Below, in pieces: positions 2,445-7,955 of a stretch of 43,942 bases of DNA; positions within the stretch are counted from its first letter, which is position 1; each line of letters begins with the position of its first letter. The notes under the pieces are model-generated. The model saw only the letters and a list, made by a program, of their open reading frames with translations, was not told the origin of the DNA and made no database searches. This stretch comes from Clostridiales bacterium. Its GTDB lineage: Bacteria > Bacillota > Clostridia > Lachnospirales > Lachnospiraceae. Location: positions 1 to 43,942 of the forward strand of contig JAQXIP010000012.1 in the NCBI GenBank assembly GCA_029007845.1, in the 5' to 3' direction. Made by a program: the position numbers and the translations under genes.

Positions 2445-3746
2445 ATGATAGAGTTTTGCAAGTTACAGATCGGATGTCTGGTAATCGTTTTATATATTGC
2501 ATTTTGTTATTACAGGGAACGGAAAAGTCTTCCTATAAAGTACCGCAGTTCCACCTTTGATGGACTGCTGGTACTTGGCATAGTCAGCATATTTTTTGAT
2601 ATGCTGACTGCATATTTTGTAAATCATCAGGACGAGATCAGTCTGGCTGCAAACCGGCTGTTACATATGTGTTTTCTCATCGGTCTGGATGCGGTGGCAT
2701 TCTTTTTGTTTTGGTATACACTCTCAATTACGGATGGAATCCCAAAGAAAAAATCAAGACAGGCTTTGTTTTGGTTTCCGTTTCTTGTCAATATTCTGGT
2801 TGTTGTGTTTAATATAGGAACACTGGAATTCCGTAGAGGCAGCATTACCAATTATTCTATGGGAATATCTGTTTACACGTGTTTTATCATGGCAGCAGTA
2901 TACATTTTGCTGTCCATCGGAATCTTTTATTGGCGTTGGAGTTATATTGAAAGCCATAAACGGGTGATTATTTTTACCTATCTTTTAGTCATCGGCGGCA
3001 TTGCAGCGTTTCAAATGAAGTATCCGGAGTCCCTGATTAGCTGTATGGCTCCTACGATTGTAATCTTAGGTGTATATCTGAATCAGGAGAATCCAGCCAT
3101 GAAGAAGCTTTCCTATTATCACAGTGAGATGGTAATGGGCTTTGCGACGCTTGTGGAAAATAAGGATGATAGTACGGGAGGGCATATCAAACGGACTACC
3201 ATGTATGTGAAGCTGCTTGCGGAGGAACTGAGAAGAAGGGGAATCTACCGGAATATCCTCACGAAAGACTATATGAATGACCTTTTATTGGCTGCCCCGA
3301 TGCATGATATCGGAAAAATTGCGATACCGGATGCGATTCTGCAGAAGCCGGGAAAATTAACGGCGGAAGAATATGAGAAAATGAAACAGCATACGGTCAG
3401 TGGTGGGAAAATCGTACAGGATACGTTTGGGCATCTTGGAAGGGCACAGTATGGAGAGATCGTTTATCAGGTGGCCCGCTATCACCACGAGAAGTGGAAT
3501 GGAGCTGGTTATCCGGAAGGACGCAAAGAGAAAGAGATTCCTCTGTGTGCAAGAATTATGGCCATCGCGGATGTGTTTGATGCAGTATCGGAAAAACGGT
3601 GTTACCGGGATGCTATGCCGCTGGACAAGTGTTTTGCGATAATAGCAGAGGGCAGTGGAACAGATTTTGAACCGATATTGGTAGAAGTATTTCTGGATAT
3701 GCGTGAGAAAGTGGAGGAAATCCATAGCCAGATCAATGACTTGTGA
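2445..3746 (+). CDS. Membrane protein with HD-GYP domain (probable c-di-GMP phosphodiesterase)
   Basis: A 433-residue protein. Residues 1-215 carry six to seven hydrophobic membrane segments with no recognisable sensor fold. Residues ~225-425 form an HD-GYP domain with the metal-binding HDIGK motif and the signature HHEKWNGAGYP, both intact, so hydrolysis of c-di-GMP is expected at the inner face of the membrane. No GGDEF domain is attached. The start has AGGAG six bases upstream and follows the promoter at 2374-2402. The signal sensed by the membrane part is unknown. A protease gene follows after 62 bases and may be co-transcribed. Confidence 0.88.
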   Translation: MIEFCKLQIGCLVIVLYIAFCYYRERKSLPIKYRSSTFDGLLVLGIVSIFFDMLTAYFVNHQDEISLAANRLLHMCFLIGLDAVAFFLFWYTLSITDGIPKKKSRQALFWFPFLVNILVVVFNIGTLEFRRGSITNYSMGISVYTCFIMAAVYILLSIGIFYWRWSYIESHKRVIIFTYLLVIGGIAAFQMKYPESLISCMAPTIVILGVYLNQENPAMKKLSYYHSEMVMGFATLVENKDDSTGGHIKRTTMYVKLLAEELRRRGIYRNILTKDYMNDLLLAAPMHDIGKIAIPDAILQKPGKLTAEEYEKMKQHTVSGGKIVQDTFGHLGRAQYGEIVYQVARYHHEKWNGAGYPEGRKEKEIPLCARIMAIADVFDAVSEKRCYRDAMPLDKCFAIIAEGSGTDFEPILVEVFLDMREKVEEIHSQINDL

Positions 3747-3808
3747 TAGTGTCATTTCCGGCTTGTTTTCAATATACTGTTAATCAGAAGGAAACAGGTG
3801 GAAATGAT

Positions 3809-5602
3809 ATGGCGGCAGGTGAAGAGGAGAACCAGAAGATTGATCAGGAACTGAGACTGGCGGTCTCAATTCCGGAAGAGGAACGCTTAGAGACGCCGGA
3901 TCTTGCGGTTGGATATGAACCAGAGAAAAAGGAATGGGAGGTTCTGGTTCGCTTTTCCGGTTCGCTGGAACAGGTTCGTGAGGAACTGACAGACCAGATC
4001 ACCCTGTTATCCAATGGATATGCAGTGATCACGCTTTTGGAAAGCCAGATTCCTTTGTTAACCGGATATCCGGAGATTATCTTTGTGGAAAAGCCAAAAA
4101 GGCTGTATGAAATGCTGGATGTCGGGGTGGCAGTGTCCTGCGTGGCTCCACTTGTAAGACCGGATACGGCTTTATTTGGAAGAGGGGTGCTGATTGGCAT
4201 CATTGACAGCGGGATTGCATACAGCCATCCCGATTTTTGTGTCAGAGATGAAAATGGAAATTATCAGAGCCGGATATATGCCATCTGGGATCAGACTCTG
4301 TCCAAGGAGAGCAAAGGACTTACAGAGGAGGCCAGAGAGCTGCTTCCGCCCCCGCCAGAGGGGTTTGGGAATGGAGCACTATTTACCCGGGAACGGATTA
4401 ATGAAGCACTGCTTGTTACCGGACAGGAGCGTCTGAATCTGGTACCGGAGAGGGATATAAGCGGGCACGGAACACATGTGGCAGGGATTGCATGTGGCAA
4501 TGGGAACGCCAGCAGTGGACGTTACCGGGGAATGGCACCGGAGTCTACCCTGTTAGTGGTAAAAATGGGAACATCAATTGGTGATTCCTTTCCACAGACC
4601 ACAAGACTGATGGAGGGAGTGGAGTACTGTATCCGTACAGCCAATGAACTTAAGATGCCGCTTGTTTTAAACTTGAGTTTTGGTAATTCTTATGGTGGAC
4701 ATGACGGAAAGACACTGGTGGAGCAGTATCTGGATGAAGCTTTGGGACTGGGGCAGATTACTGTCGTAACGGGAAGTGGAAATGAAGGGGATACTGGAAA
4801 ACATCAAGGTGGAACGTTACAACAGGGAGAGGAAACGGTTGTGGAACTGGCAGTTGGACTAGGGGAATCGAGTGTCAGTTTCCAGATCTGGAAGTCTTAT
4901 GCAGATGAAATGCAGATTATTCTGGAGTCTCCATCGAGAGAACGATGGGTTATGACACCTGGAATCTCTAATTTTTCGATGGGTGATACAAAGATTTATG
5001 CACTGTATGGGGAACCAACTCCGTATCAATTGAGGCAGGAACTTTATCTTGTTTTGTCCGGATATGAGTCAGATGTTACGAATGGTGTGTGGCGGATTCA
5101 CTTTTACCCGCAAAGAATCGCAGACGGCCGGTATGATATCTGGCTTCAATCGGGAAATGTGCTGAATCCTGCTACACGTTTTCTATCACCGGTTCTTTCT
5201 GATACTTTGACGATTCCTTCTACGGCAGATGATGTGATCACCGTTTCTGCCTATGATCCCCGTACCAGTCAGTATGCTTCTTTTTCCGGAAGAGGACCGA
5301 CTGCCGGGAGACAGTTGAAACCAGATCTTTGCGCACCGGGTGTTGGGATTATGAGCGCTGCGCCAGGCGGGGGCTATCAGTCGAAGTCCGGAACATCCAT
5401 GGCAGCTCCTTTTGTAAGCGGAGGGGCAGCACTTCTGATGGAATGGGGGATTGTGCGTGGCAATGATCCATTTTTGTATGGGGAGAAGGTAAAGGCCTAT
5501 CTCATCCGTGGCGCAAGAAAACTTCCCGGGTTTCAGGAATATCCCAACAGCCAGGTGGGATGGGGGGCGTTGTGTGTGGCAGACAGTTTACCAAGGGGGT
5601 AG
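3809..5602 (+). CDS. Subtilisin-family (S8) serine protease, Csp-like architecture
   Basis: A 597-residue product starting at the ATG at 3809 (AGGTGG upstream). An in-frame start at 3743 overlaps the previous gene and lacks a ribosome site. The catalytic triad is intact: Asp ~133 (IIDSGIAYSHPDF), His ~220 (GHGTHVAG) and Ser ~530 (SGTSMAAPFVSG). Residues 1-110 resemble a prodomain. An insertion of roughly 130 residues (~345-480) between the His and Ser regions recalls the jelly-roll insert of clostridial CspB/CspC proteins, which process or sense signals in spore germination. No signal peptide is seen, which also fits Csp-type proteins. The germination role is only an inference from architecture, since many Lachnospiraceae have several such proteases. 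Confidence 0.85.
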   Translation: MAAGEEENQKIDQELRLAVSIPEEERLETPDLAVGYEPEKKEWEVLVRFSGSLEQVREELTDQITLLSNGYAVITLLESQIPLLTGYPEIIFVEKPKRLYEMLDVGVAVSCVAPLVRPDTALFGRGVLIGIIDSGIAYSHPDFCVRDENGNYQSRIYAIWDQTLSKESKGLTEEARELLPPPPEGFGNGALFTRERINEALLVTGQERLNLVPERDISGHGTHVAGIACGNGNASSGRYRGMAPESTLLVVKMGTSIGDSFPQTTRLMEGVEYCIRTANELKMPLVLNLSFGNSYGGHDGKTLVEQYLDEALGLGQITVVTGSGNEGDTGKHQGGTLQQGEETVVELAVGLGESSVSFQIWKSYADEMQIILESPSRERWVMTPGISNFSMGDTKIYALYGEPTPYQLRQELYLVLSGYESDVTNGVWRIHFYPQRIADGRYDIWLQSGNVLNPATRFLSPVLSDTLTIPSTADDVITVSAYDPRTSQYASFSGRGPTAGRQLKPDLCAPGVGIMSAAPGGGYQSKSGTSMAAPFVSGGAALLMEWGIVRGNDPFLYGEKVKAYLIRGARKLPGFQEYPNSQVGWGALCVADSLPRG

Positions 5603-5770: not shown

Positions 5771-5799
5771 TTGACAGATAAAACATATGGTGCTATAAC
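5771..5799 (+). promoter_or_regulatory. SigmaA promoter for the T-box leader and cstA
   Basis: Perfect -35 TTGACA (5771-5776), 17-base spacer, -10 TATAAC (5794-5799). Transcription should begin near 5806, giving a leader of roughly 460 bases before the transporter gene. Confidence 0.75.
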
Positions 5800-5805
5800 A
5801 GTGGT

Positions 5806-6151
5806 TGGACAGAAAGAAATGCTATGAACAGAACAAGACATATCAGGGGGTATTCCTTGACAGAGAGTCATCGGCTGGTGTGAGATGACATGGAATCCTG
5901 AATGTTATCCTCTGCGAGCAGTGCACTGAAATTCTCCTGGAATCAGGGAAGTATAGGTGTCACCGGTTTTCTACCGTTATCTAGAAGCTTATTGCTGGCA
6001 TACAGATATGCTGTTATGCAAAGATAAGACAGAGTGGTTGCTGATTGATTGAATTGACAACAAGCAAAGTGGTAACGCGGAAGAACGATTTTTTTGGCTT
6101 TCGTCTTTGGGTATGTAAAAGAATGCATGCCTGGAGACGAAAGCCTTTTTT
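5806..6151 (+). promoter_or_regulatory. T-box riboswitch upstream of cstA
   Basis: T-box landmarks appear in order: AGAGAG at 5862-5867 followed by a TCATC/GATGA hairpin (Stem I), the conserved downstream element TGCGAGCA, and the T-box proper AAAGTGGTAACGCGG at 6066-6080 with its tRNA-acceptor bulge UGGU. A terminator at 6096-6151 competes with the antiterminator, whose AAAG can pair with CTTT at 6098-6101. The 3' side of the specifier loop reads GAATGTTATCC. I favour GUU (valine), because the codon is usually followed by A and because UGGU requires an A discriminator base, which valine tRNA has. Uncharged tRNA would switch the transporter on. Confidence 0.82.
6096..6151 (+). terminator. T-box intrinsic terminator
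   Basis: A perfect 10-bp stem, GGCTTTCGTC (6096-6105) with GACGAAAGCC (6136-6145), is followed by six T residues. The left arm overlaps the 3' half of the antiterminator. Confidence 0.88.
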
Positions 6152-6235
6152 GCTGTTCGGGGCACTGTTTATCTGTATGAGGTAATAAGAACCGGCTTTC
6201 TGCATACATAATGATGTATTACTTGATTATTAGGG

Positions 6236-6258
6236 AAAGGAGAAGTCTGCAAGCAGAC
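6236..6258 (+). promoter_or_regulatory. Ribosome site separated from the cstA start by a small hairpin
   Basis: The only strong ribosome site before cstA is AAAGGAG at 6236-6242, 27 bases from the ATG at 6270, which is too far if linear. Between them GTCTG (6245-6249) and CAGAC (6254-6258) can pair around CAAG. Folding it would bring the site to an effective distance of about 13 bases. Confidence 0.45.
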
Positions 6259-6269
6259 GGAAAAAGACA

Positions 6270-7955
6270 ATGAATGGATTAGTGATTGTTTTAATCGGAA
6301 TTGTAACACTAGGTGCTGGTTACCTTCTTTATGGACGGTGGCTGGCAAAAAAATGGGGAATTGATGAGACGGCAAAAACCCCGGCTTATACCCATGAAGA
6401 TGGAGAGGACTATGTACCTTCATCAAAATTTACGGTATTCTCCCATCAGTTTTCTTCGATCGCCGGAGCAGGACCGGTTACCGGACCAATTCTGGCTTCG
6501 GTATTTGGATGGGTGCCGGTATTGCTCTGGCTCATTATTGGAGGTTTATTCTTTGGTGCCGTCCAGGACTTTGGAGCACTGTATGCGTCCGTTAAAAATG
6601 AAGGAAAATCCATGGGGATGATTATTGAAAAATACATCGGAAAAGCTGGAAGAAAGCTGTTTATGCTGTTCTGCTGGCTGTTTACCCTTCTGGTCATCGC
6701 TGCTTTTACGGACATGGTTGCAGGAACCTTTGTCGGAGCTGGAAAAGAGGTTGCAGATTCAGAAACAGCATATGCACATTCTGCAGCAGCTTCCATCTCA
6801 ATGCTCTTTATCGTGGTAGCTGTTGTGTTTGGACTCATTCAAAAATATGTCGGAAAGATGAATGAAATCGTAAAAGCACTTGTTGCCATTGCTCTTTTAG
6901 TGGCTATGTTTGCAATCGGAATGAAGTTCCCGATCTATGCATCAAAAAATGCCTGGATCTATATTGTAATGGCATATCTGTTCCTGGCTTCCGTCATGCC
7001 GATGTGGCTTTTGATGCAGCCAAGAGATTACATGACAACTTTTATGCTTCTTGGCATGATTGCCGGTGCTGTAGTTGGTGTTGTCGCTGCACATCCGGTG
7101 ATGAAACTGAATGCCTTTAATGGATTTTCTGTAGGGGGAAACGGACTGTTCCCAACCCTTTTTGTAACGATTGCCTGTGGTGCGGTATCTGGTTTCCACA
7201 GCCTTGTTTCCTCTGGAACCTCATCGAAAACAGTAAGCAATGAAAAAGATATGCCGATGATCGGATACGGTGCCATGGTTGTGGAATCGTTATTGGGAAT
7301 TGTTGCACTGGTTGTTGTAGGTGCGGTGGCAGTGGATGGAACAAAGCCGGAGGGGACACCGTTTTCAATTTTTTCCGCAGGAGTTGCCGGATTCCTGGAA
7401 CAGCTGAATGTACCGGTTCAGGTTGCGACAGTGTTTATGACGATGTGTGTATCAGCCTTGGCTCTTACCTCTCTGGATTCAGTAGCAAGAATCGGTCGTA
7501 TGTCTTTCCAGGAACTGTTTTATGGAGATAGCACGGATCCGGCAAAGATGACTATGTGGCAGCGGGTTTTGACAAATAAATACTTTGCAACTGTGATTAC
7601 GTTATTCTTTGGTTATCTGCTTACTTTGGGCGGGTACAATAATATATGGCCATTATTTGGGTCTGCAAACCAGCTTCTTGCTGCACTTGTGCTTATTGCT
7701 CTTGCGGTATTCTTAAAAACAACCGGCAGAACGGGATGGACATTATACATACCAATGTTTCTTATGCTGGCGGTTACCTTTACTGCGTTAATCCAGAAAA
7801 CGATTGCGCTGGTTGGTAATGTGGCAAACCATACTGCAGTTTTTCTGGTAGACGGTTTACAGCTGATTGTTGCAGTGCTTTTGATGGTTCTTGGAGTTAT
7901 CGTAGCATTTAGCTGCTTAAAGAAACTCTTTGGAAAAGTGTCCAAAGCAGAGTGA
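6270..7955 (+). CDS. cstA: CstA-family transporter (carbon starvation protein A type)
   Basis: A 561-residue membrane protein with about 14-16 hydrophobic segments and the CstA family features: an N-terminal segment ending in YGRWLAKKWG, the SSIAGAGPVTGPI region near residue 65, and FGSANQLLAAL near residue 460. Family members import peptides (E. coli CstA) or pyruvate (BtsT). The length here is shorter than E. coli CstA (~700) and typical of Gram-positive forms. Placement behind a T-box points to an amino acid or peptide as cargo rather than pyruvate, an inference from regulation only. The gene is monocistronic, with its own promoter upstream and a terminator at 7983-8016. Confidence 0.9.
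   Translation: MNGLVIVLIGIVTLGAGYLLYGRWLAKKWGIDETAKTPAYTHEDGEDYVPSSKFTVFSHQFSSIAGAGPVTGPILASVFGWVPVLLWLIIGGLFFGAVQDFGALYASVKNEGKSMGMIIEKYIGKAGRKLFMLFCWLFTLLVIAAFTDMVAGTFVGAGKEVADSETAYAHSAAASISMLFIVVAVVFGLIQKYVGKMNEIVKALVAIALLVAMFAIGMKFPIYASKNAWIYIVMAYLFLASVMPMWLLMQPRDYMTTFMLLGMIAGAVVGVVAAHPVMKLNAFNGFSVGGNGLFPTLFVTIACGAVSGFHSLVSSGTSSKTVSNEKDMPMIGYGAMVVESLLGIVALVVVGAVAVDGTKPEGTPFSIFSAGVAGFLEQLNVPVQVATVFMTMCVSALALTSLDSVARIGRMSFQELFYGDSTDPAKMTMWQRVLTNKYFATVITLFFGYLLTLGGYNNIWPLFGSANQLLAALVLIALAVFLKTTGRTGWTLYIPMFLMLAVTFTALIQKTIALVGNVANHTAVFLVDGLQLIVAVLLMVLGVIVAFSCLKKLFGKVSKAE

Follow-up and report, generated by a model that had tools for sequence, protein, structure and literature searches.

The cstA gene in the window, a stretch of 43,942 nucleotides that makes up contig JAQXIP010000012.1 of a gut bacterium of the Lachnospiraceae (Clostridiales), is preceded by a genuine T-box leader, and the specifier codon of this T-box is AUC, for isoleucine. 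One clade within the CstA family, from Lachnospiraceae and, here and there, from other Firmicutes, has the same Ile/Leu device. Computation establishes the presence of the T-box, the identity of its codon, the terminator and the conservation across the clade. CstA proteins occur widely, and whether they carry peptides or pyruvate is in dispute. Control of this cstA by tRNA-Ile is very probable. We further consider it likely that the leader is a class I transcription-attenuating tRNA-Ile T-box and that the clade imports branched-chain amino acids or peptides as a starvation response.

The T-box family RF00230 matches the region upstream of cstA over the full length of the model (1-219 of 219) with 81.2 bits and an E-value of 6.1e-18 (cmscan, 721 nt searched), see Table 1. 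The curated cut-off is 93 bits, and a default Rfam scan therefore misses the T-box. Six out of the nine T-boxes found in the genome score below 93 bits, including those before ileS, thrS, trpE and metG. An nhmmer model built from cstA leaders gives the leader 199.5 bits, the window being one of the 24 training rows. The end of the leader and the start of the cstA ORF are separated by 158 nt. The full-length match, the UGGU bulge, the terminator and the intact PF02554 ORF bear out the earlier note, which had placed a T-box in front of a CstA gene.

Near relatives, for example L011, L013 and L014, also have an arrangement TTGAC(A)...GTGCTAT ahead of the leader. A consensus promoter scan does not return the likely promoter of the window, because the final base of its -10 element is a C. 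The terminator hairpin at 6096-6145 has a predicted energy of -35.3 kcal/mol (z -9.1), and none of 200 shuffles is as stable. For the antiterminator alone the value is -10.1 kcal/mol, and shuffles are equally stable. The two structures share the strand at about 6096-6110, which is the 5' strand of the terminator. A small hairpin, GUCUGC-AA-GCAGAC at 6245-6258 (-5.7 kcal/mol, z -2.0), sits between the AAGGAG and the cstA ATG, which stand 27 nt apart, and might make their effective spacing shorter. The gene immediately preceding the cstA unit, at 3743-5602, encodes a CspB-like subtilisin protease (CspB_prodomain, Peptidase_S8), a protease of the spore-germination type.

Table 1. Features of the cstA unit, in positions of the window.
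Feature	Position	Strand	Basis
Likely sigma-A promoter, TTGACA, 17-nt spacer, TATAAC	5771..5799	+	Read from the sequence
T-box leader (RF00230), stem I through antiterminator	5815..6111	+	cmscan and nhmmer leader model
Stem I lower helix, 5' strand CAGA	5829..5832	+	Pairs with 5911-5914 in the MFE fold; covaries
GUU trinucleotide, not the specifier	5904..5906	+	Paired with GAC (5837-5839) in the MFE fold
Specifier AUC (Ile)	5907..5909	+	Specifier loop, 1 nt before the lower helix; alignment of relatives
Stem I lower helix, 3' strand UCUG	5911..5914	+	MFE fold and covariation
Antiterminator, mutually exclusive with the terminator	6065..6110	+	Rfam alignment and fold
T-box bulge UGGU, complementary to 5'-ACCA-3' of tRNA-Ile	6070..6073	+	Sequence
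Intrinsic terminator, 22-bp stem then U6	6096..6151	+	Terminator scan and folding
Shine-Dalgarno-like AAGGAG	6237..6242	+	Sequence
cstA, 561-aa CstA-family (TC 2.A.114) secondary transporter	6270..7955	+	PF02554

The specifier was read with a column rule, according to which the codon is followed, after a single nucleotide, by the lower, covarying helix of stem I. TBDB prefers the same frame, with one nucleotide between the codon and the lower helix (PMC7778990). The rule is right for all six other T-boxes of the genome whose target gene fixes the amino acid: UUC (Phe) for aroG, the DAHP synthase gene, CUC (Leu) for leuA, AUG (Met) for metG, UGG (Trp) for trpE, ACU (Thr) for thrS and AUC (Ile) for ileS. 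In the Rfam alignment the codon columns hold AUC in the cstA leader, and T-boxes elsewhere in the genome have UUC, CUC, AUG and UGG there. In the predicted fold the specifier loop has AUC and one C on its 3' side, and GUU lies in the helix above. Among 67 readable cstA leaders, which represent 52 distinct contexts as some genomes are present in both collections, the codon is AUC in 55 and CUC (Leu) in 12, with none other, so that codon bases 2 and 3 (U and C) are invariant. AUC and CUC are one base apart, and the CstA tree needs about five changes between them. The first pair of the lower helix varies between C-G, A-U, U-A and G-C across the relatives, i.e. the changes are compensatory. All four pairs of this helix form in 38 out of 43 cstA leaders, a set used for the helix and S-turn counts that leaves out 17 rows and in which row L016 is offset by one base.

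These data also decide between the other codons that might be read from the loop. The earlier note had taken the specifier to be GUU, with the T-box sensing valine. This trinucleotide does stand one nucleotide after a GAA, as in some T-boxes, and a UGGU bulge fits the discriminator A of tRNA-Val. However, the information content of the GUU columns in the 67 leaders is 0.46, 0.01 and 0.52 bits, i.e. they are near random, every leader has AUC or CUC in the three bases that follow, and GUU is the codon in none of them. With GUU paired in the predicted fold, and a different codon, AUC, in the specifier position of the RF00230 alignment, valine is refuted, and we see practically no chance that it is sensed. 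The bulge had been cited both for valine and against a cysteine codon, UGU, and only the second use of it stands. The tRNA-Cys of the genome has discriminator U, and this together with the alignment of the 67 leaders rules out cysteine. UGGU cannot single out valine, because the tRNAs for isoleucine and leucine also carry A: so does tRNA-Leu, like tRNA-Val, in the genome of the window, and so does tRNA-Ile(GAU) in three relatives, the gene for the latter being absent from the incomplete assembly of the source genome itself. The two T-boxes of the genome whose bulge has a different fourth base fit their tRNAs too, UGGC before trpE with the G of tRNA-Trp and UGGA before thrS with the U of tRNA-Thr. 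If the codon were instead one base later, UCC or UCA, the T-box would sense serine, and since U and C are invariant and followed by C or A, the +1 frame always gives a serine codon. This frame is rejected mainly by the discriminator G of the genome's tRNA-Ser, which would need UGGC, whereas the readable leaders have UGGU. It would also put the codon directly against the helix, which is not so in the calibrating T-boxes, and the first base of AUC/CUC is only ever A or C, giving isoleucine or leucine. Serine is thus a very improbable signal, and we read the codon as AUC, for isoleucine.

The specifier loop of the cstA leaders is unusual. The S-turn of stem I (AGUA/GAA), a common but not defining feature of T-boxes, is absent above the specifier in the leader of the window. 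In the same 43 leaders AGUA occurs in one and GAA in two, and the S-turn is present in seven out of the eight other T-boxes of the genome. Immediately 3' of the codon, 32 of the 52 contexts have C and 20 have A, and a purine is preferred there in other T-boxes (PMC7583486). The variant loop probably explains the modest Rfam score, and it is one reason why the codon is easily misread.

A few more RNA elements were seen. Positions 1-133 of the window contain a Clostridiales-1 RNA (RF01699) cut by the contig end, and the same sequence is present at L006 1282-1434, on another contig; this repeated RNA may therefore have broken the assembly. On the minus strand of L006, at 1501-1822, there is a T-box (80.5 bits) with an AAC-like specifier and UGGU. 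No ORF of 100 aa starts within 500 nt downstream of it, and it may be an orphan or broken leader. A T-box at L002 1501-1767 precedes leuB, the gene of 3-isopropylmalate dehydrogenase, with a GUA (Val) specifier where leucine is expected.

For comparison, CstA genes were gathered from genome contigs and a sample of 200 Lachnospiraceae genomes, and T-boxes were sought with the profile of cstA leaders in the clade members having enough upstream sequence. A T-box is found upstream of 61 out of 89 members of one CstA clade (aLRT 100). None is found for the 23 tree rows outside the clade, in 35 upstream regions of paralogues with about 45% identity, or in 29 upstream regions of cstA loci from a phylum-wide sample. 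The clade members lacking a T-box, e.g. in Oribacterium and Lachnospira, look like losses. In L038, a near relative, the element ahead of cstA is a TwoAYGGAY RNA (RF01731, 86.3 bits, 2159-2322). It stands in the place of the Ile T-box of close relatives, and one cis-regulator may have replaced the other. No gene is conserved downstream of cstA; the neighbour varies and is often on the opposite strand, and thus cstA itself is the target of the T-box. The control of this CstA branch by a T-box responding to an amino acid, as the earlier note had proposed, is therefore well supported. The T-box might be a relic of another transcription unit, without control of cstA, and the transcriptome of Bacillus methanolicus indeed showed a break between the T-box and cstA1 (PMC4342826). 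Across the clade, however, the T-box is kept beside cstA while the genes further downstream change, and it is absent from the paralogues searched, which indicates conserved regulation. We regard a relic as highly improbable.

The cstA ORF is intact and matches PF02554 with 494 bits (cut-off 27, E 8e-148), and it is the only close CstA in the source genome. The AlphaFold model of the protein (pLDDT 84, pTM 0.85) has a LeuT/APC fold. Its best match is SLC7A10, with a Z-score of 27.8, and amino-acid transporters are among the top matches. A search of solved structures with the CstA sequence gave no match. A predicted fold of this type does not by itself name a substrate. The identity to E. coli CstA and BtsT is 31-32%, and the clade shares two motifs with both E. 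coli proteins, IAGAGPxxGP in TM1 and SGFH.

A different reading accepts that Ile or Leu tRNA is sensed but takes the imported compound to be pyruvate, from which all the branched-chain amino acids are made, so that precursor supply would be raised under isoleucine starvation. CstA and BtsT of E. coli, which have been characterised, carry pyruvate with a narrow specificity (PMC7730263, see also PMC5847655), and the motifs shared by both groups agree with such a substrate, as does the presence of ilvC in 30 out of 30 clade genomes versus 153 out of 170 others in the Lachnospiraceae sample (p 0.08). On the other side, the partner YbdD/YjiX (PF04328), reported as essential for pyruvate uptake by E. 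coli CstA (PMC5847655), is absent from all 200 Lachnospiraceae genomes and from the source genome, while the E. coli control was found. Residue 60, at the start of the predicted TM1, is Gln in 61 out of 61 T-box CstAs but His in E. coli CstA, in BtsT and in all 17 paralogues. One MAG (L047) has a Leu T-box before cstA and lacks ilvC and ilvD, although gaps in the MAG could explain this. A pyruvate signal would also allow an alanine codon, which occurs in none of the leaders of the 67 relatives. On this balance pyruvate import behind an Ile/Leu T-box is unlikely.

The missing PF04328 partner and Gln60 give moderate evidence that the clade carries something else than pyruvate, in the simplest case branched-chain amino acids or peptides. 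As the characterised CstA and BtsT carry pyruvate, we can only infer this uptake. Free branched-chain amino acids are the leading candidate, with a nearly even chance; peptides are a distinctly weaker one, pyruvate ranks slightly lower still, and branched-chain 2-oxo acids are improbable. Some other possible clues to the substrate were set aside. BrnQ is the usual branched-chain carrier. It is not depleted in the clade genomes (7 out of 30 versus 23 out of 170 others, p 0.17), and its functional replacement by the clade CstA was rejected on this basis. The absence of ilvC or ilvD as proof of salvage is uninformative, because nearly all genomes have ilvC, and operon partners give no clue since none is conserved.

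By analogy with T-box biochemistry, from which the tRNA-dependent switching is deduced, the leader would work as follows. At isoleucine shortage the anticodon of uncharged tRNA-Ile(GAU) would pair with the AUC specifier and its 3' ACCA with the UGGU bulge, the antiterminator would be stabilised, and RNA polymerase would continue into cstA. With charged tRNA-Ile, the terminator would form and cstA would be off. T-box logic implies that the cstA product would relieve a shortage of isoleucine (or leucine), and an Ile/Leu device on this clade would most likely mean import of branched-chain amino acids or small peptides holding them.

The leader resembles class I T-boxes of RF00230 (B. subtilis tyrS type, Ile/Leu) in that it has a kink-turn motif, a long stem I whose apical motif is AG-rich, a specifier loop, stem III, a UGGN bulge and an antiterminator/terminator switch. 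Unlike the usual class I T-box it lacks the AGUA/GAA S-turn, often has C in place of the purine 3' of the codon, and has a CstA transporter as its target. The transporter families reported under T-box control are MFS, APC, NSS, DAACS, LIVCS, NhaC and ABC (Wels et al. 2008, PMC2494555). Like those transporters cstA would be induced by starvation, with a specifier that hints at the substrate, and LIVCS carriers have Ile T-boxes in several Firmicutes; CstA (TC 2.A.114), however, is not among the seven families listed. The clade belongs to the same Pfam family as the E. coli pairs CstA-YbdD and BtsT-YjiX, from which it differs in lacking the partner, in Gln60 and in having a T-box instead of CRP or BtsSR. 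A T-box has been annotated upstream of cstA1 in B. methanolicus (PMC4342826), but there no specificity was given and it was thought a leftover, whereas here it is conserved in a clade and has Ile/Leu codons. Among the papers searched, no report of a CstA clade with an Ile/Leu T-box turned up apart from this dismissed case. More tentatively, the clade could be an Ile/Leu importer whose substrate differs from that of CstA and BtsT, with leaders that form a T-box subtype decoding tRNA without the S-turn.

Reading the codon as isoleucine corrects a misreading that would direct experiments to the wrong amino acid, and the cstA leaders point to T-boxes with an unusual specifier loop. The conservation in the clade suggests that the single earlier case of a T-box before cstA, in B. 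methanolicus, was no accident. For a transporter family with a disputed substrate range, the Ile/Leu T-box conserved in one clade is a direct and testable pointer to the substrate in common gut Lachnospiraceae.
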